Part shown: in pieces, positions 11,037 to 20,760 of the stretch | Layout of the letters: every line of letters begins with the position of its first letter | How positions within the stretch are numbered: position 1 is the first letter of the stretch | Source of the DNA: Gymnodinialimonas sp. 57CJ19 | GTDB lineage: Bacteria; Pseudomonadota; Alphaproteobacteria; Rhodobacterales; Rhodobacteraceae | Direction of reading: 5' to 3' | DNA length: 64,000 nt | Assembly (NCBI RefSeq): GCF_038396845.1 | Contig: NZ_CP151587.1 | Span: forward strand, 842,001-906,000 | The notes under the pieces: generated by a model | The model's input: only the letters and a program-made list of their open reading frames with translations | Databases searched by the model: none | What the model was told of the DNA's origin: nothing | Made by a program: the position numbers and the translations under genes

Positions 11037-11111
11037 CCCGGCCCAAAGCACCGTATCGGCGCCATCCCACTGGCTGGCGACTGTCCAGACTTCCTGCATG
11101 AAACTAATGGT

Positions 11112-11154
11112 GACCCCGGCAGGATTCGAACCTGCAACCTGCCCCTTAGGAGGG
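11112..11154 (-). repeat. Left attachment site (displaced 3' part of tRNA-Arg)
   Basis: These 43 bases are identical to the 3' part of tRNA-Arg(CCU) at 20688-20730, but no 5' half lies next to them. This is the displaced host tRNA end left by site-specific integration, and not a functional tRNA gene. Confidence 0.92.
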
Positions 11155-11168
11155 ATGCGTTCATAGCG

Positions 11169-12263
11169 CTATTCCTTTTGTGATTTCTTGCTGTTGGGTG
11201 TTTGTACAGCGTCATCCTGTACGTGATTTGTACGAAAACGGGCTCTAATGTCGGCCTCATCGGTCTCTGCGTGGGCATAGATGCGCATGGGCAAATTGGG
11301 GTCTGACCAGCGGCCAGCCTTGGCTGCCGTGACCGGATCGACGCCCTGGCGGACAACCAATTCAGTGAAGAACCCGTGCCGCCCAGCGGGGTGGGCTGAC
11401 AGGTACGGAATGCCAGCGCGTTTGCAGATCGTCTTCCAGCGCGTGTTGTAGCCGGTGGAACTCCCATAGCCGAAGACGCGCGCTTTCATCAGCTTGCCGG
11501 TCTTGCGGTTCTTTGGCCGCTTCGGCGGCAACGCCAGAAGCTCGTCCATCATCTGAGGCGAAACAGTGATCCAACTTTCAGGATGGCCCTTCTGCGCTTT
11601 CACTCGGACTTTGTTTTCATGCGGTCGTAGATCATCAGGCTCCAATGATACGGCCTGATCGATCCGTGCGGCCGTCTCGAACATGAAACGGACCAGCGCG
11701 GCATTGTATGGATCAGCGGCACGGCAAAATGCCTCGATCCATTCCTTGTCAGCTGGCGTGCGCTCGACGCGGCTAAGCTTCCCCCGCCGCTTGTCCTGCG
11801 CGATCCGCTCGAACTTGTCGTAGGGCTTCACGCGAATCAGAGGCGTCCCCTCCAGCTCGTGGGCGTTGTTGATCACAGCACACGCGGGCGTCACAATTTC
11901 GCGCCACCAGGTATCGGTCGACGCTTTCGGTTTCAGCTTCGGTCCAAGGCTCTTCAATAACGCGCCGGAAATCGCGCCCAGAGACAGGTCGCCGATTGCT
12001 TCGACAATCGGGATCAACTGCTTCGCTGCTTTTGGTGACGCGTTGTAGAGCATGATAGCATCAGAGAACGTCTTGCTTGGTTCGTCGCCCACGACATAGC
12101 GACGGATTTGACGTTCAGTCTCATGGTTTATCCAGTCCCGTGCGCCCTCTTCTGTAGATGCCTTAGTGCTTCGCCGGTATGGGCCGGCGATTGGCCTGCC
12201 GTTGTATTCAATCCACCCCTTGGCCCAGTAGACACGGCCCCTTTTGTAAATTTGGAGCGGCAT
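11169..12263 (-). CDS. int: Site-specific tyrosine integrase
   Basis: This 364-residue phage-type integrase has an Arm/SAM-like N-terminal half and a C-terminal catalytic domain. The catalytic set is visible: Arg in ETAARIDQAVSL, HPAGRHGF (box II His and Arg), and GRWSDPNLPMRIYAHA with the nucleophilic tyrosine. It starts at ATG 12263 with GAAGGAGG upstream and ends 14 bp from the left attachment site, as expected for a tRNA-targeting integrase. Its 5' end overlaps the upstream HTH gene by 136 bp in another frame. It should catalyse integration and excision at tRNA-Arg. Confidence 0.93.
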   Translation of the reverse strand: MPLQIYKRGRVYWAKGWIEYNGRPIAGPYRRSTKASTEEGARDWINHETERQIRRYVVGDEPSKTFSDAIMLYNASPKAAKQLIPIVEAIGDLSLGAISGALLKSLGPKLKPKASTDTWWREIVTPACAVINNAHELEGTPLIRVKPYDKFERIAQDKRRGKLSRVERTPADKEWIEAFCRAADPYNAALVRFMFETAARIDQAVSLEPDDLRPHENKVRVKAQKGHPESWITVSPQMMDELLALPPKRPKNRKTGKLMKARVFGYGSSTGYNTRWKTICKRAGIPYLSAHPAGRHGFFTELVVRQGVDPVTAAKAGRWSDPNLPMRIYAHAETDEADIRARFRTNHVQDDAVQTPNSKKSQKE

Positions 12264-13358: not shown

Positions 13359-14258
13359 ATGGCCTTCGGTATCTTCATCCATCGCAGCGACTCGATCTAC
13401 GACGACATTCCCTCGGAGCGGTATCAGTTTCCCAAGCAATACCTCTCGCGAGCCCAACAGTGCGAAGGTGATTGGATCGTCTACCTCGAGCCAACCAAGG
13501 TCAAAGAGACCAAAGGGTACTTTGCTGTCGCTAAGGTCCAGGAAATCATTCCGGATCCTAGGAAGCAGGACATGTTCTTGGCGGTGATCGAGGCAGGAAC
13601 GTATCTTGATTTTGGCGACCCTGTTTCATTCCGAGACGAGAATTCAATCATCGAAAGAGGATTGCTGAACGATCAAGGCAAGATATCCGGACGCGCACAA
13701 GCCGCAGTAAGAACCCTTTCAGCTGAAGACTTTGCCCGAATAGTCGAACGTGGTCTTGGACGAGATGAGGACATCCTGCCCCGCGTGGGCGACACGATGC
13801 AGTTGCCAGGGTTTCAGGACACGCAAACACCTTTCCAACACATGCCTGCACGGGAACGCGTCAACCAACTGACCAACCGGGCGGTTCGCGATCGTAATTT
13901 CAGAAAGAACGTCCTGCGCGCCTACGGCGAGCGTTGCGCCATCACCGGCCTACGCCTGATAAATGGCGGTGGCCGCGCCGAGGTGGAAGCCGCCCATATC
14001 AGACCTGTAGAGCATGACGGCCCCGACATTGTCAGCAACGGACTTGCCCTGTCCGGAACCGCGCATTGGATGTTTGATCGCGGCCTCGTTGGGTTGGCGG
14101 ATGACCTGACTATTCTGGTTTCCCGGCAGAGCAACGATATCGAAGCCGTGACATCTATGATCAACTCGTCCGGCAAGATCTTGGTGCCGGACCGCCTCGC
14201 CAACCGGCCCAGGACTGAGTTTGTAAACTGGCACAGAGAGAATTGTTTCAAGCAGTAA
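13359..14258 (+). CDS. HNH endonuclease with N-terminal PUA/EVE-like domain
   Basis: This 299-residue protein has a C-terminal HNH_2-type nuclease: the cysteine of CAITGLRL near residue 193, AAHIRPV near 212, then VSNGLALSGTAHWMFDRGLV with the metal-binding histidine near 236. The N-terminal 110 residues (FPKQYLSRAQQCEGDWIVYL and YFAVAKVQEI) look like a PUA/EVE-type fold, a class that can bind modified bases; this part is inferred by eye. The combination suggests a modification-dependent restriction enzyme. It is the third gene of the XRE operon. Confidence 0.8.
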   Translation: MAFGIFIHRSDSIYDDIPSERYQFPKQYLSRAQQCEGDWIVYLEPTKVKETKGYFAVAKVQEIIPDPRKQDMFLAVIEAGTYLDFGDPVSFRDENSIIERGLLNDQGKISGRAQAAVRTLSAEDFARIVERGLGRDEDILPRVGDTMQLPGFQDTQTPFQHMPARERVNQLTNRAVRDRNFRKNVLRAYGERCAITGLRLINGGGRAEVEAAHIRPVEHDGPDIVSNGLALSGTAHWMFDRGLVGLADDLTILVSRQSNDIEAVTSMINSSGKILVPDRLANRPRTEFVNWHRENCFKQ

Positions 14259-14338: not shown

Positions 14339-15178
14339 ATGAAAGTTCAGAAACCGGTTTTTGGTGAAATCACACAAGGCACTTTGTTCAACTGCGCTAT
14401 TGCCGACAGATACCGGGGCAAGCGTGTACACGGGTTAGGCATCACAGCTAGGTGCGACATCGCAAATGATAAATATCCAGTGCTGAACTATTTGCCGGTC
14501 GTTACGTTGTTTGATTGGATGCACTGTGACGGCTTCGAGATATTGTTCGGCAATGCCTTGAAGTCACAACGCGGAAGCTTCGAAGGCACCTTGAAACAGG
14601 CAGGGGTGGCCACAAGCGTATTGGCGTCTATCCCACGCCAGGAAGTAGTTTCCAGCTTCTTTGATGATGAGAACGCATCTAGACAACAGAAAAAGCTTGC
14701 TGGCAAAGCACACGAGCAGGCGAACCGTCTGGATGCACTCGAGGCTTTGAGCGCGGATAGTTCTAAAGACAGAAACTGGTTCCTAGATACATATGAAAAA
14801 GAGGCATCGGCGCTTGTGAAAGAGCTGGTGCAGCACAAGGTTCCCAGTTTTTACTTCATTCCCAGCGTGACCGATGAGAATGAGAATGACGGGCACGTCA
14901 TCCTTCTAAGAGAAAGTGCGTTTTTGCCCCGAAGTATAGCCAAGGAAGTGGCTAACGGCGTAGATCGTCCTGAGAAAAATGATTCTGAATTAGGTATCCA
15001 CCTTTCATTCGAATTTGACGACTTCGCAATGCCAGTAGGGCAAGTCCCATCTCCGAACATCGAACACATTCTGCAGACATTCTCATATATGTTCGGCCGA
15101 ATTGGCCTAGAGAATTACACTGCGGATTTCATATCGGATGTCTGTGGCCGGAAATTCGTGAAAAAGGGAATTGCATGA
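14339..15178 (+). CDS. Uncharacterised protein paired with an SF1 helicase
   Basis: At 279 residues, no family was recognised with confidence. The N-terminus has VFGEITQGTLFNCAIADRY and then GLGITARCDIANDKYP, a pattern like the QG-x-x-F and I-T/S-Q-x-CDI motifs of some uncharacterised proteins. The middle is rich in charged helix (QQKKLAGKAHEQANRLDALE). There is no signal peptide or membrane segment. ATG 14339 is chosen because the upstream part of the frame overlaps the HNH gene. Its end comes 1 bp before the helicase ATG, so the two are translationally coupled and probably act together. Confidence 0.7.
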   Translation: MKVQKPVFGEITQGTLFNCAIADRYRGKRVHGLGITARCDIANDKYPVLNYLPVVTLFDWMHCDGFEILFGNALKSQRGSFEGTLKQAGVATSVLASIPRQEVVSSFFDDENASRQQKKLAGKAHEQANRLDALEALSADSSKDRNWFLDTYEKEASALVKELVQHKVPSFYFIPSVTDENENDGHVILLRESAFLPRSIAKEVANGVDRPEKNDSELGIHLSFEFDDFAMPVGQVPSPNIEHILQTFSYMFGRIGLENYTADFISDVCGRKFVKKGIA

Positions 15179-15179
15179 C

Positions 15180-17477
15180 ATGAAGTACATTATTTTTGAA
15201 GAAGGCGCTGTCGACGAGTTTGTATCTAACAGGTTCTTTCAGACCATCGAGTTTGACTTGGCTCGTGCACTTTACGAGTTGGTTGCTGGAGGAGTGACCT
15301 CGGCCGTATTTCCACCTGAAGTTTCGCTGATTAAGCTGGATGATGGAATCGCATTTGCTAGTCCCAACGCCTCGAAAGACTCGCATTTCCTGGTGATAGA
15401 TTTGGAGCAGTCCCGGTTCCTAGAAGAAGTAGATGCTGGCGAGACGGTATTTGTACTTCAGAAAACCCTCAGGTTTGCGAAAAAGCTTTGGCAGAATATG
15501 TCTTTGAACTTCTCGGAGAAGGTCATTCCAGCCAGTACTAAAGCCATTCTTTTTCCCTACCCTTACAAGCCAACACCGTATCGTGTGGTTATTGAACAAG
15601 CTCCCTGGGCTGACCGCCTGAAGAAACGAAACTTTGCCGGGAAATTTTTGCTCGTCTACAAGACGGGTTACGGGAAAGGCGACGCAAATAGCGAACAAGC
15701 AGGCATAACAAATTTCAAGAAAGCTTTTGAACAGGTCGATGAGGTCATTTCGAAAGCCCGTGCAATGATGCCCACGCAGGCTGCGGCGTCTACGAGCGTC
15801 GTGAAGGTATCAGAGCTGGACACCGTACCGGGCACTAACGGAACGTCAATGTTTCAGTCGTTTGATGACTGGATGAAGATGCTGACCAAAAAACAAAGGG
15901 AGTTCATTGAGGCAGATGTAAATGGTGCCCATCGTATCGAAGGTGCGGCTGGAACTGGGAAAACTCTGTGCCTGATGTTGAAGGCGATAGCTTCCCTGAA
16001 AAAGTCAGTTTCCCAAGGCACCTCGCTTCACATCGTGTTCGTAACTCACAGTGAAGCAACGAAGCGTGCTATCATTGAATTTCTTATGGTGCTCGACCCG
16101 GACAATTTTGCGGATCGTGATCGCTTTTTGGAGAAAAATACTCTGAAGGTTTGCACATTGAGTGAGCTTTGTGCCGAGCAACTGGCCCAGCATATTAGCG
16201 AGTCCGAGTTCATAGACCGGGATGCCTTAGAGTCAAAAGAAACACAGCTTCTTTACGTTAATGAAGCGTATTGTAGCGCGATGGAAAACGACTTTCCATC
16301 TCATGAGAGATTTTTGTCGACTGACCTTAGAGAGTTCCTAAGGGATACAGACGGCTGGGCGATTACGGAAATGCTCCAACATGAGATCAGCGTTATGATC
16401 AAAGGGCGCGCTTCCGAGGACTTCGATGCCTACAAAAATGCTCCCTCTTTGAAGTATGGAATCCCAATAAACGGCGACGCTGACAAAGGCTTTGTTTTTG
16501 CGATATTCAGGAAATACCAAGAGCAGCTCGGGGCGGTATCCCAGTTTGACACTGACGATGTGGTCCTAACAGCCATCGGTCAGCTTGATACGCCTGTATG
16601 GCGGAGGAGACGTGTTAGGGATGGATATGATGCGGTGTTCATCGATGAAACCCATCTGTTCAACATAAATGAACTCCACATTTTTCACTACTTCACAAAA
16701 AGTGACACCCATTTCCCAATTGTCTATTCGGTCGACCGTACTCAGGCAGTAGGCGATCATGGTTGGACTAATCAAGATATCTCTGAGACGCTAACCGGCG
16801 GACCAACAAAAGAGGATCAGAGTAAACTGCAGACGGTTTTCAGATCCTCTCCCCAGATCGTAGAACTGGCGTTCTCGATTGTGTCTTCCGGCGCTACTCT
16901 CTTTACAAACTTCGACAATCCGCTTGAAGCCGCTGCATCGAGCTTCACGGATGAGGAGGAGCGGATGTCGGCGCAACCCATGTTCCGCTCTTATCCAAAT
17001 GATCAGGCGATGATTGAAGGCGCTTACGAACGCGCGGAGGCCATGCAGAAGGATATGGGATGCAAGAAAGGTAAAGTTTTGATTGTTGGCTTCGACAAAG
17101 GTTTGGTCGAGAGCTTACAGGAATACGCCAAAACAAAAAACAAACCTCACATCCTGCTAAAGAAGCGTGGTGACGTTGAAGCCGTTGGTGAAGCCGAAGC
17201 TTCTGGGAAATTTGTTGTAGCCCATGCAGATTTTGTTGGTGGGCTAGAGTTCTCTGGAGTTGTTGCCGTTGGTGTTGACAAGGGGCGCTTGCCTCCCTCG
17301 AAGGATCAGTCGAGCGAAAACAGCAAACACTTCCTATCCTATTCGTCGCACAATAGGCTATATGTCGCCGTCAGTCGCGCGAAATACAGAGTGGAACTTC
17401 TTGGGGACCAATCACGGGGACCTAGCGACTTGATCGAACCTGCGGTTAAGGCCGGCATTCTAAGTCTGCAGCCATAG
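15180..17477 (+). CDS. Superfamily 1 (UvrD-like) helicase with novel N-terminal region
   Basis: This 765-residue protein contains the SF1 ATPase motifs: Walker A EGAAGTGKT near residue 255, Walker B AVFIDETH near 486-491 (DETH rather than the usual DExQ), motif III-like YSVDRTQAV, QTVFRSSPQIV, and motif VI LYVAVSRAKYR near 726. The first 240 residues match no domain I recognise. The insert between motifs I and II (about 230 residues) is also unassigned. ATG 15180 lies 1 bp after the upstream stop, with AAGGGA before it. A DNA-dependent translocase in a two-gene defence module is the leading guess. Confidence 0.82.
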   Translation: MKYIIFEEGAVDEFVSNRFFQTIEFDLARALYELVAGGVTSAVFPPEVSLIKLDDGIAFASPNASKDSHFLVIDLEQSRFLEEVDAGETVFVLQKTLRFAKKLWQNMSLNFSEKVIPASTKAILFPYPYKPTPYRVVIEQAPWADRLKKRNFAGKFLLVYKTGYGKGDANSEQAGITNFKKAFEQVDEVISKARAMMPTQAAASTSVVKVSELDTVPGTNGTSMFQSFDDWMKMLTKKQREFIEADVNGAHRIEGAAGTGKTLCLMLKAIASLKKSVSQGTSLHIVFVTHSEATKRAIIEFLMVLDPDNFADRDRFLEKNTLKVCTLSELCAEQLAQHISESEFIDRDALESKETQLLYVNEAYCSAMENDFPSHERFLSTDLREFLRDTDGWAITEMLQHEISVMIKGRASEDFDAYKNAPSLKYGIPINGDADKGFVFAIFRKYQEQLGAVSQFDTDDVVLTAIGQLDTPVWRRRRVRDGYDAVFIDETHLFNINELHIFHYFTKSDTHFPIVYSVDRTQAVGDHGWTNQDISETLTGGPTKEDQSKLQTVFRSSPQIVELAFSIVSSGATLFTNFDNPLEAAASSFTDEEERMSAQPMFRSYPNDQAMIEGAYERAEAMQKDMGCKKGKVLIVGFDKGLVESLQEYAKTKNKPHILLKKRGDVEAVGEAEASGKFVVAHADFVGGLEFSGVVAVGVDKGRLPPSKDQSSENSKHFLSYSSHNRLYVAVSRAKYRVELLGDQSRGPSDLIEPAVKAGILSLQP

Positions 17478-17644: not shown

Positions 17645-19207
17645 CTAATGGGTGAGCCTTTGGTTGAGTTCCCGCGTGTCTAACTCTCGTTCAGCCGCCT
17701 CTCGGCGTCTTTCGCTAGTTTCCAGCTGGTTTCTAATCCCGCCCGAAGAGTCTCGTAATTCTGCTCCTCGCGCAGCAAGTCGACTAATGTGGTGACGGAC
17801 GTGAGATGTGATTTCATCAATAGCGCCACGCAATGCGCCAAGCCATTCACCTTGCTTTCGATCCTGCTGGTCGAGCGCGTCTCCAAGGCGTGCAATTCCG
17901 TGGCTGAGCTCTCGCAGGCCGTCACCAACCGTTCGACGGATGCGAGCAATTCGCGCTCCAATGCTGTCAGGGGCGTTGTCGGTGGATTGGTCATCTAAGG
18001 CTCCTTGATCTCGATGCAGATGATTGGCGTTTGCGCCATCGTGCAGGTCTTCAACTCGGTCCGGTCGGGGTCCAGCGTCACCCATGTCTGCCCCGCCTGT
18101 TCGATCCGTGTCAGGCCAAGCCTCGTCATCTCCGAACGCGTGATCAAGCCCGTCCAAAACCAACTCGCGATCAGCACTGTCGCGATCCAGGATGAGACCA
18201 TCCCCACGATCACCCAGGGTGAGATCGTCAACCAGCGCCTGATCGTCTCGCTCCGCCTCTCCAACTCGCTCCTGCTGTCGCTGAGAAAGAACCTGATATC
18301 GGTTTCGATTGTATGCAGCGCGCTGGTCGCAATGCTGCTGAAATCGCTCCTGAAGCTTTCCAGTTGAGATTCCATCAAGGCGGCGTGGTCGCTGCGTACT
18401 GTCTTCAGGTCCGCGTTCAATTTCTCGGCGAGGCGGTTCGGCTTGCCAGTCGTCATGGAAAATCTCTCCTTTCAATCGCCAGCGCTCACCGGTGTCGGGG
18501 TCTTTGGCGGTGATGTAATCTTTGCTGGCACGGGGGATTTCGAAGCCCGCATCAGTGAGTGCATCGATCATGCTGGCGCGGTCGGTGATTGTGCCGACGC
18601 TAATCTGATCGAGGATCCAATCGTGCAGCGCTTCGCGACCTTGCGCGCGCGTCGGCGCTTCAATCGTCGCTCTCACTTCGCGGGCGTGTTCTGGCTCCAA
18701 AGGGTCTGCCCAACCGTGCGTTTTGTTCATCAAGTCGCGAAGGTTGGCAAAGGCGTTCTCATGCCCTGGAGGAGCGATGTTCAGGGCCTTGCCGGTGCTA
18801 AGCTCAAGTCGTGGCGTGCAGAAGTGCAGCTCGACATTGCCTTCATGCGAGTGGCGCACCCAAAGGCAATCGTATTGATCCCTGTCCAGCCCAGCAAAGG
18901 CCAGAGCCTCAAAAAGCTCAATGGCCTCTTGCTGGGCGTCAGGACTGGGATCATCGCTATCGGCAAAGCTGATCACACCTGCCGTGTAACTCCATTTGTT
19001 GGGGCTCGCGTCGATCAGGTCGCGGGTCTGATCGGGATTGCCGTGCAGCACTTCGGGCAACGGGTCGCGGATCTTGGTTTGCGGCTCACCGCTGTCATCG
19101 CGAATAAGGTTGCGGTTGTCGTCGTAGACCAGAACTTCACGCGCTGTCAGGTAGTCTACGGGGGCCGCACCGCCACCTGTTCCAGTGGAGAAGAACGAGA
19201 TGATCAT
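17645..19207 (-). CDS. mobA: Mobilization relaxase, MobA/MbeA-like
   Basis: This 520-residue protein has the relaxase metal motif HSHEGNVELHF near residues 118-128, close to the HEN-type motif of ColE1 MbeA. YTAGVISFADSDDPSPDAQQ is upstream. The C-terminal 230 residues are charged and probably coiled coil. The enzyme would nick oriT and lead the DNA strand to a helper secretion system. The start overlaps the mobC stop (ATGA). Two other genes lie entirely within its 3' half in a different frame, as in ColE1 and RSF1010 mob regions. Confidence 0.88.
   Translation of the reverse strand: MIISFFSTGTGGGAAPVDYLTAREVLVYDDNRNLIRDDSGEPQTKIRDPLPEVLHGNPDQTRDLIDASPNKWSYTAGVISFADSDDPSPDAQQEAIELFEALAFAGLDRDQYDCLWVRHSHEGNVELHFCTPRLELSTGKALNIAPPGHENAFANLRDLMNKTHGWADPLEPEHAREVRATIEAPTRAQGREALHDWILDQISVGTITDRASMIDALTDAGFEIPRASKDYITAKDPDTGERWRLKGEIFHDDWQAEPPRREIERGPEDSTQRPRRLDGISTGKLQERFQQHCDQRAAYNRNRYQVLSQRQQERVGEAERDDQALVDDLTLGDRGDGLILDRDSADRELVLDGLDHAFGDDEAWPDTDRTGGADMGDAGPRPDRVEDLHDGANANHLHRDQGALDDQSTDNAPDSIGARIARIRRTVGDGLRELSHGIARLGDALDQQDRKQGEWLGALRGAIDEITSHVRHHISRLAARGAELRDSSGGIRNQLETSERRREAAERELDTRELNQRLTH
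17680..17994 (-). CDS. Nested mobilization gene, MbeD-like position
   Basis: This 104-residue gene lies wholly within the relaxase gene in another frame. Its ATG directly follows the stop of the nested gene upstream, and AAGGAG lies 6 nt before the ATG. The protein is mainly helical (LTALERELLASVERLVTACE; VTTLVDLLREEQNYETLRAG) and has no membrane segment. Small helical proteins in this position (MbeD in ColE1) aid mobilization or entry exclusion. The assignment rests on position, ribosome site and helical character, not on sequence identity. Confidence 0.6.
   Translation of the reverse strand: MTNPPTTPLTALERELLASVERLVTACESSATELHALETRSTSRIESKVNGLAHCVALLMKSHLTSVTTLVDLLREEQNYETLRAGLETSWKLAKDAERRLNES
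17995..18456 (-). CDS. Nested mobilization gene with membrane helix, MbeB/MobB-like position
   Basis: This 153-residue gene sits inside the relaxase gene in another frame, with AAAGGAG upstream of its ATG. The first 70 residues are amphipathic helix (DHAALMESQLESFRSDFSSI). One clear membrane segment follows (WVIVGMVSSWIATVLIASWF), then a short domain with two cysteines. RSF1010 MobB is likewise overprinted on the relaxase gene and membrane-bound, and it links the relaxosome to the coupling protein. The real-gene call rests on the two good ribosome sites, the head-to-tail arrangement and the membrane segment. Confidence 0.65.
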   Translation of the reverse strand: MTTGKPNRLAEKLNADLKTVRSDHAALMESQLESFRSDFSSIATSALHTIETDIRFFLSDSRSELERRSETIRRWLTISPWVIVGMVSSWIATVLIASWFWTGLITRSEMTRLGLTRIEQAGQTWVTLDPDRTELKTCTMAQTPIICIEIKEP

Positions 19208-19674
19208 GCGTCACCGCCTGTGTGTGCCGCCACAATCTGTGCCAACTGCCGTTCGATGACCACCAGCTGAGCAGCGACCTTGAGCGCATCGATCTGGCTC
19301 GCACGGCCAGATTTGACCGCGCCGTTGATCCAGCGAGAGAGCTGATTGAGGTTACCGCCGACACGGGCAATCGCAAAGGTCAGCCTCGGGTCAACACGGG
19401 GGACGGGCTTGCGCCGACGTGCCTCGACCAGCCCCAAGGCCTCTCGCATCAGCGTGGCATTGGGCAGGCCAGCGGCGCGCGCTTTGGCCACGAGTGCTGC
19501 CTTTTCCGACGGGGTGCATCGAAAGATCACGCTCTCGGAAAGGCCCTCTTTGACGCCGCTTGCGCGCGTCTGGTTGGGGTTTGAAGGGGAGGCTTGCCGC
19601 CCCTCACAAGTCCCGCCGATGTAATCGGCGGGTAACCTTGCTCTCTGCTCTTTGTCGGGACCAGTTGCATTCAT
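19204..19674 (-). CDS. mobC: Relaxosome accessory protein MobC
   Basis: At 156 residues, a ribbon-helix-helix-like segment (ESVIFRCTPSEKAALVAKAR) is followed by the MobC signature FAIARVGGNLNQLSRWINGA near residues 101-118. Such proteins bind oriT and open DNA for the relaxase. The first 40 residues are basic and probably disordered. It overlaps both neighbours by 4 bp, so rep-like gene, mobC and mobA form one operon. Confidence 0.85.
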   Translation of the reverse strand: MNATGPDKEQRARLPADYIGGTCEGRQASPSNPNQTRASGVKEGLSESVIFRCTPSEKAALVAKARAAGLPNATLMREALGLVEARRRKPVPRVDPRLTFAIARVGGNLNQLSRWINGAVKSGRASQIDALKVAAQLVVIERQLAQIVAAHTGGDA

Positions 19675-20528
19675 GATCGGAGCCCCGCCGCCTCGATTTC
19701 AGTAGGGCTGACCAGGTTTGCGGCCAGCAACGCGGTCACTTGGCCGGGTGTGATGTGGCGGCACAGTGGATGTTTGTCTGTGACCCAGTCGGCCAAACCT
19801 TTCAGCAATTCGGCCTCTTTGGCTTTGCCCGCTTCACGCGCCTCCTCAACCTCCTGAAGGTATTTCAACCAACGGCCAGAGCTGAACCAGTTGTCGGAGA
19901 AACATACCTTGGAGCGGGTGAAGCCTTCGCTTTCGGCTGCATAGGCCCGCACGGCGTCCTCGAGGTCTTTGGCATCCACTCCGTCCGCCAACGCTTGGCG
20001 GATTTGTGAGAGACAAACCGCTTTGCCGCGAATGCGATCCTCGGGATAGGCTGACAAAATCTTTTCAGAAACTTCATCCTCCACCGCCGCCTTCGCGTGC
20101 GAAGGATTTGGTTTTTGATATGGTTTATATCTGTTCTTATAGGATTTGCCCTCTGGGGCAGATGGCTTGCCCTCAGGGGCAAATGCATCATTTTCCCGTT
20201 CGGTCGTATCGATTTGCCCATTTGGGCAAATGGAGTTGCCCAAGGCATACCAACAGGTCCGGTCATAGCGATCATCGCTGAAATTGCCCTTGATGATCAG
20301 CTCTGCGCTGACCAGCTTTTCGAGCGCTGTGCGGATCTGCTTCTCGCTCAGATAGGGGAACAACTCACTAAAGGCCGAGATCGAATTGTAAGTCCAATAC
20401 CGCCCATCACGAAGGTTCCGGCGATTGGCTTGGTTCTTCTCGATCCAGAAGGTGATGTTCTGAAAGATGACGGCCGCGTTCAGGCCAACACGTCCGGCGA
20501 TTTTAGGATCAAAGCTATGGCGGCTCAT
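19671..20528 (-). CDS. Winged-helix replication-initiation-like protein
   Basis: This 285-residue protein begins with a phage/plasmid replisome-type winged helix (VGLNAAVIFQNITFWIEKNQ; YWTYNSISAFSELFPYLSEK; QIRTALEKLVSAELI). A polar linker with two PEGK repeats and a C-terminal helical part follow. Genes of this kind head the mob operons of many alphaproteobacterial elements and may drive autonomous replication after excision; that role is inferred. ATG 20528 with AGGGG upstream is preferred over the GTG at 20552. Confidence 0.7.
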   Translation of the reverse strand: MSRHSFDPKIAGRVGLNAAVIFQNITFWIEKNQANRRNLRDGRYWTYNSISAFSELFPYLSEKQIRTALEKLVSAELIIKGNFSDDRYDRTCWYALGNSICPNGQIDTTERENDAFAPEGKPSAPEGKSYKNRYKPYQKPNPSHAKAAVEDEVSEKILSAYPEDRIRGKAVCLSQIRQALADGVDAKDLEDAVRAYAAESEGFTRSKVCFSDNWFSSGRWLKYLQEVEEAREAGKAKEAELLKGLADWVTDKHPLCRHITPGQVTALLAANLVSPTEIEAAGLRS

Positions 20529-20562
20529 GATTGACCCCTGAAATACGCACAAACGTGCAAAT

Positions 20563-20607: not shown

Positions 20608-20683
20608 GCCGCGAAAGCTCACGGGACTTTCTGCACGCTTCCGCGCAACGTCCTGTAAATAGGCCATATTTTTCAGGTGTTTT

Positions 20684-20760
20684 TGGCGACCCCGGCAGGA
20701 TTCGAACCTGCAACCTGCCCCTTAGGAGGGGGCTGCTCTATCCAGTTGAGCCACGGGGCC
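20684..20760 (-). tRNA. tRNA-Arg (anticodon CCU)
   Basis: Read on the minus strand, the acceptor GGCCCCG pairs with CGGGGTC, the D stem is GCTC/GAGC, the anticodon loop is CTCCTAA, the T stem is GCAGG/CCTGC with loop TTCGAAT, and CCA is encoded. It is the integration target of the mobile element; its last 43 mature bases before the discriminator form the right attachment site at 20688-20730. Confidence 0.97.
20688..20730 (-). repeat. Right attachment site within tRNA-Arg
   Basis: These 43 bases are identical to 11112-11154. They lie inside the intact tRNA gene, which was restored on integration. Confidence 0.92.

Follow-up and report, generated by a model that had tools for sequence, protein, structure and literature searches.

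In the 64,000-nucleotide stretch of the genome of Gymnodinialimonas sp. 57CJ19 analysed here (contig NZ_CP151587.1, positions 842,001 to 906,000 of the forward strand; hereafter the window), two adjoining forward-strand genes encode a 279-residue protein, which we call the partner (14339–15178; ATG start at 14339, TGA stop at 15176–15178), and a 765-residue UvrD-like helicase of superfamily 1 (SF1; 15180–17477). A single base separates the partner stop from the helicase ATG, as had been pointed out in an earlier note that was based on the sequence alone and that considered the two genes a plausible undescribed anti-phage or anti-plasmid system. Judged from sequence, this proposal is supported by the pairing of the genes, by their carriage on islands and in hotspots, and by the lack of a family match, with the exception of the parts that concerned an HNH nuclease and an insert in the helicase.

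The coupling of the two genes is conserved. In a set of 38 loci (the window, 26 loci from species genomes, five viral contigs, and six plasmid or phage records), 34 contain both genes, always with the partner first, at spacings of −14 to +15 bp and with an overlap in 24 cases. In the other four (L021, L022, L025 and L032), the partner itself is incomplete and the contig ends 2–195 bp further on, and L039, one of the 34, has a helicase frame that ends early near an IS21-type gene. These loci had been gathered via the partner, and the reverse search was therefore done with the N-terminal domain of the helicase alone. Among 72,556 plasmid records, this domain was found in 86 and 89 with two queries, as compared to 88 for the partner, and the genera agreed, as judged by genus counts rather than record by record. 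Within the order to which the organism belongs, the domain occurs in four of 390 genomes, which are the same four that possess an adjoining full-length partner, albeit two of them are not independent of the 38-locus set. Each gene is found in 111 of 5,426 complete Escherichia coli genomes, with at least 80% of the query covered in 109 of these. The distance matrices of partner and helicase correlate with a coefficient of 0.92 over 33 loci, shared ancestry being left in. The ratio of nonsynonymous to synonymous substitution rates (dN/dS) for the loci L018 and L019 is 0.073 for the partner and 0.031 for the helicase, synonymous sites being saturated for most pairs of loci, and the phage pair L029–L034 is too close for such an estimate (0.341 for the partner, from a dS of 0.020). 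Among the listed matches on E. coli plasmids, seven of 60 partner copies and three of 60 helicase copies are split, interrupted or truncated, a difference that is not significant, and a stronger decay of the partner as a sign of its toxicity was thus not adopted.

The helicase consists of an N-terminal domain (residues 1 to about 225; 15180–15854) and an SF1 motor (15855–17477). The motor matches PF00580 with 50 bits (cut-off 23) and has intact ATPase motifs, as the earlier note had stated, with a Walker A motif GAAGTGKT at residue 255, the motif II DETH at 489, GGLEF at 687, and YVAVSRA at 728, which identifies it as a UvrD/Rep/PcrA-type (SF1A) motor. UvrD/Rep and HelD structures align to the helicase model over residues 226–765 alone. 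The supposedly unassignable insert of 230 residues does not exist as such: it is the ordinary stretch of 234 residues between motif I and motif II, across which the UvrD/Rep structures align, and in UvrD/Rep-type helicases these motifs are separated by some 190 residues. The N-terminal part, in contrast, indeed defies assignment, as about 225–230 residues match no Pfam family and no PDB sequence. In our surveys, it occurred solely together with the partner. The model of the helicase is of fair confidence in this domain, with block means of 82–95 for residues 1–190 and lower values beyond, and with a predicted template-modelling score of 0.41 for the whole model. The domain has a strict set of polar residues (Q21, D74, Q94, R98, E113 and R150). 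A RelE/ParE-like domain, prompted by the predicted order of strands and helices, found no support at the profile level, where hhalign gave a probability of 0.2% against 14 ParE proteins (PF05016).

No family of Pfam or NCBIfam was matched by the partner above its cut-off; with E values up to 1, the sole Pfam match was a sub-threshold WPP. Structure modelling suggests a MazF/CcdB-like fold with a helical insert of about 100 residues (approximately 57–165), and the best viral structure match is the unnamed BFVD entry A0A4D5ZZC5 (E 0.009, 246 residues). A kinship with MazF could not be proven by sequence: PF02452 (MazF/PemK) is absent from the hmmscan matches of the partner and from the listed families of 76 homologues (best 25 of 34), and the profile comparison with MazF/PemK gave probabilities of 0.2–0.4%, still 0.4% with the helical insert excluded. 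The GLxITxxCDI-type motif recognised earlier is present as GLGITARCDI, with ITARCD at residues 35–40, and the invariant residues comprise QG, ITARCD, K45, W60, S238, P239, E242, Q246, R254 and G256. As the genome and viral scans had ITARCD inside their search patterns, the invariance of this motif in the respective loci is partly by construction; it is also found in L033, L036 and L037, which are plasmid and phage matches picked without that pattern. MazF relatives are RNA cutters and CcdB relatives are gyrase poisons, and a putative effector of this fold may do either; the ITARCD motif belongs to neither group.

An outlier of the survey, genome G646, led to a more distant version of the pair, which is also present on an Agrobacterium plasmid and on an Undibacterium plasmid (L107 3455–6554, reverse strand; L112 5992–9095; L113 5995–8600). 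A profile comparison relates the distant partners, of which that of G646 is broken into two frames, to the first kind with a probability of 98.8% (E 9e-17, 233 columns). They carry INADCD where the first kind has ITARCD, and each is directly followed by an SF1 helicase, the Undibacterium one being short (591 residues as annotated). In their N-terminal domain, these helicases show no resemblance to the first kind that a profile comparison could detect (probability 0.9%), and the only plasmid records with this domain are again these two. Further distant pairs occur in G918 and G358 (L121 7188–10261, forward strand; L122 6417–9475, reverse strand), with TADCD/NADCD partners of 284–285 residues and helicases of 736–739 residues. 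The order of the genes is kept, and the helicase frames overlap by 4 and 7 bp. No distant partner piece was found in the viral scan or in the phage collection. Since the partner family thus tracks SF1 helicases beyond recognisable N-terminal similarity, the data suggest that the partner contacts the N-terminal domain of the helicase. Two side observations may be added. In G974 (L123 6433–9542, reverse strand), an intact helicase of the first kind with 756 residues lies behind a partner in three pieces. Furthermore, both plasmid copies of the second subtype are near multiubiquitin, ThiF and DUF6527 genes, a neighbourhood that we take to resemble a bacterial ubiquitin-type conflict system.

In the window, the pair lies on a 9.6 kb integrative mobilisable island, in agreement with the earlier assumption of a mobile element. 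The island is flanked by a 47-nt direct repeat that copies the 3' part of a tRNA-Arg with 98% identity: the left copy is at 11108–11154, and the right copy (20684–20730) is part of the tRNA-Arg(CCT) gene that serves as integration site (20684–20760, reverse strand), as identified by ARAGORN and the repeat. Besides the pair, the island encodes a tyrosine integrase (11169–12263, reverse strand; PF00589, 39 bits, cut-off 27.1), an HNH nuclease (13359–14258, forward strand; PF13391, 36.9 bits, cut-off 21), a MobA-type relaxase for mobilisation (17645–19207, reverse strand; PF03432, 25.3 bits, cut-off 24.6), and a MobC/NikA accessory protein (19204–19674, reverse strand; PF21983 with 41.8 bits, PF05713 with 26.9 bits). 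A 293-residue gene beside the mobilisation genes (19671–20552, reverse strand) has no Pfam family above cut-off and is perhaps a replication initiator. The tRNA side is kept in all 12 congeneric genomes searched, and the homology to the congeners begins at 20683 or 20684, which is the island border, in 11 of them and at 20618 in the twelfth. In neither of the two regions compared was the left flank detected, and the proof of an empty site is only half complete. The match of the closest congener (G002, L105 14139–15998) to the window runs 66 bp past the island border at the tRNA-Arg, which is perhaps due to a relative of the element that carries other cargo. The G+C content of the pair is 0.483, as compared to 0.619 in the right flank.

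The integrase, helix-turn-helix, relaxase, MobC, replication-like, excisionase-like and HNH genes of the island gave no tblastn match (E 1e-5) in the 37 other loci, in which the same search found the partner in 36 and the helicase in 33; these loci extend at most about 10–12 kb from the pair, and more distant copies would escape. The unit therefore consists of the two genes. The HNH nuclease, which the earlier note had associated with the pair, is indeed encoded on the same strand 80 bp upstream of the partner start, but it is not part of the module and was discarded as a third component. The HNH protein scored 110.7 bits against NF045808 of NCBIfam (PT-DNA_restrict), below the cut-off of 180, and 68.9 bits against an HNH model of PADLOC, and by its sequence it is possibly a separate modification-dependent (type IV-like) restriction enzyme on the same island.

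The pair is rare and patchily distributed. The window's own genome is the only one to contain it among 385 genomes of the class and among 41 relatives, and in a phage collection of 50,697 records it occurs in two records of one phage, while its range covers Alpha-, Beta- and Gammaproteobacteria as well as Clostridia. All placements in E. coli are on plasmids and none is on the chromosome, and 82 of the 88 plasmid records with the partner are predicted to be conjugative. A scan of viral contigs with the whole helicase was uninformative: its 600 pattern matches included no confirmed relative, and it missed L028–L031. On plasmid pAPEC-O2-ColV (L033 11974–15013), the pair follows efflux genes, presumably ets.

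The placement in phages and satellites is that of defence genes. The P2-like Klebsiella phage ST16-OXA48phi5.4 has the pair between its portal gene and gene A for replication, in the gpA–gpQ interval that is occupied by old and tin in P2 itself. In the satellite L031, it lies between psu and the integrase gene. According to the accessible part of PMC9122126, the P2 interval is an established hotspot of anti-phage systems, and the psu–int interval is the P4 defence hotspot. The partner of L032 also follows psu, the pair of L029 follows a portal gene, and the pair of L030 follows the integrase gene of an element with P4-type Ash and primase genes; of the six phage or viral loci, the five that were typed (all but L028) thus look P2- or P4-like. 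Elsewhere, a complete Gabija system (GajA 896 bits, GajB 828.7 bits) is separated from the pair by one other gene (L019), and the pair adjoins AbiU near a type IIG enzyme (L017) or an OLD/AriA-like ATPase (66 bits; L012). These placements in hotspots and near known systems stand without a background rate for comparison. The same applies to the PADLOC counts for the neighbour proteins (262 listed, 256 scanned, six of L032 being left out), which matched 9 and 90 families at 1e-20 in two batches. Many neighbours are ordinary metabolic genes according to Pfam, and five of ten chosen neighbour proteins were without any match in the scan.

None of the systems that we compared accounts for the pair. 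In Gabija, GajB is described as a sensor of DNA termini (PMC10952713, accessible part). Gabija resembles the pair in that two adjacent genes include one for an SF1 UvrD-like helicase, but here the partner is no OLD/TOPRIM nuclease, and the helicase has an extra N-terminal domain of about 225 residues and a DExH motif II. The distinction from Gabija made by the earlier note is borne out: the partner matched none of the GajA models of PADLOC or the ATPase families of Pfam, and the helicase matched GajB with only 42.7 bits (best stretch 439–571), far below the 828.7 bits of the true GajB in L019. Hachiman differs as well, as its helicase HamB belongs to superfamily 2 (SF2) and its HamA is a DUF1837 nuclease, whereas the pair combines an SF1 helicase with a predicted MazF/CcdB-like fold. 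Membership in Hachiman was rejected, because no HamA (DUF1837) match was found in Pfam or PADLOC with E values up to 1, and because the motor is of the UvrD-type SF1 according to PF00580 and the UvrD/Rep/PcrA structures. However, as far as the accessible text of PMC12278908 goes, HamB restrains the DUF1837 effector HamA until damaged DNA is met, and the pair may work alike, with a sensor helicase that restrains a small effector protein of once unknown function. By analogy, Hachiman would be the nearest precedent for the manner of working.

The system Helicase + DUF2290 (Rousset 2022) likewise combines a helicase with a small unknown protein in phage and satellite hotspots, as described in the accessible part of PMC9122126. 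The partner has no DUF2290 by Pfam, nor is this domain among the best 25 of the 34 families matched by the 76 homologues, and we therefore excluded this membership; a PADLOC model that is named only 'Helicase', and that may stand for this system, matched with 21.5 bits over residues 224–290. AbiO/Nhi, NERD+UvrD and reverse-transcriptase-associated helicases gave weak matches (39.5, 33.5, 28.7 and 30.1 bits) that all fall in the motor (234–577), and they share neither the N-terminal domain nor the partner. MazF/PemK and CcdB toxins differ from the partner by the lack of the helical insert and of ITARCD and by the absence of a significant profile match. In the window, the gaps of 80 bp and 1 bp leave no room for a small antitoxin gene, and therefore the pair is not a plain type II toxin–antitoxin pair; this statement covers both gaps in the window and the downstream side in 34 loci, where the neighbour is the helicase. 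In the open literature, no description of the pair was found: in their accessible parts, PMC9122126 does not contain the word UvrD, PMC9519451 mentions helicase once and neither UvrD nor MazF, and PMC11980606 does not mention helicase. The term undescribed thus refers to these searches and to PADLOC-DB 2.0.0 (2023), Pfam and NCBIfam, while PHROGs and supplementary tables, including Tables S1 and S5 of Rousset, are outside this scope.

As the pair is coupled, conserved and placed in phage defence hotspots, it probably is a rare, conserved and undescribed bacterial immune system. We consider defence to be its likely function, and if so, there is a good chance that the helicase is the sensor and the partner the effector. 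For the complete picture—a conserved two-gene defence cargo of mobile elements, in which a sensor helicase holds a MazF/CcdB-fold effector inactive—we have a cautious preference, based on the reciprocal pairing, the co-variation, the motor motifs, the fold resemblance, the mobile carriage, and the placement in defence hotspots. The SF1 motor would hydrolyse ATP as it loads on aberrant nucleic acid or on that of an invader, for example phage ends, forks or intermediates of replication. Until then, the helicase would keep the partner inactive, probably via its private N-terminal domain, which we regard as the probable docking site. Once the motor meets its trigger, the partner would be released or switched on, and it could then attack a nucleic acid or a nucleic-acid enzyme, by cutting RNA or as a gyrase-type poison, and stop the phage or the infected cell.

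The roles may also be reversed, although we think this unlikely: the helicase could be the effector that unwinds or blocks phage DNA, perhaps with a nuclease in its N-terminal domain, and the partner a non-cutting subunit for recognition or loading. Such an arrangement would agree with the finding that, by eye, no conserved residue of the partner corresponds to the opening Arg of the MazF motif RPxxxIS, that ITARCD, K45 and the C-terminal SPxxE...RIG are instead strict or nearly so, and that the N-terminal domain contains strict polar residues of its own. However, no nuclease family was detected in this domain by sequence, and helicases act as the sensor in Hachiman and, reportedly, in Gabija (PMC12278908 and PMC10952713, as far as accessible). 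It is rather improbable that the pair is an addiction module, in which the helicase neutralises a MazF-like toxin to retain plasmids, prophages and islands and any effect on phages is secondary. The predicted fold, the exclusive plasmid placement in E. coli and the many conjugative plasmids would fit, but an ATPase of 765 residues would make an unusual antitoxin, all 34 two-gene loci begin with the gene of the putative toxin, and maintenance does not need a position in phage and satellite defence hotspots. We give still less credit to a function in the replication, repair or transfer of the mobile element itself: despite the UvrD-type motor and the carriage by plasmids, phages and an integrative element, the pair travels on differing kinds of elements without the other island genes (within the reach of about 12 kb), and it is rare, with one of 385 class genomes and a single phage. 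Finally, a stand-alone housekeeping helicase that follows an unrelated gene by chance, for which only the UvrD-family motor would speak, can practically be dismissed in view of the sparse and patchy occurrence, the reciprocal pairing and the co-variation.

Returning to the sensor–effector model, we tentatively propose, at somewhat below even confidence, that the pairs constitute a new immune family divided into several subtypes. In each of these, an SF1 helicase would control its own MazF/CcdB-fold effector, the helicases differing in N-terminal domains that are exchangeable and look unrelated, and the effectors having a new active centre built on (T/N)A(R/D)CD...K. The effector would then be a toxin fold that is governed by a DNA motor, which has replaced the antitoxin. 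If this is true, a helicase–effector immune system that is missed by PADLOC-DB 2.0.0 would reside on plasmids of 111 of the 5,426 complete E. coli genomes, and it would connect the MazF/CcdB toxin fold with the SF1 sensor helicases, which have been separate worlds until now. The pair would thus be a test case for a motor protein that takes over from an antitoxin the restraint of a toxin fold, and it would permit a test of why one partner family associates with helicases whose N-terminal domains are unrecognisably different.

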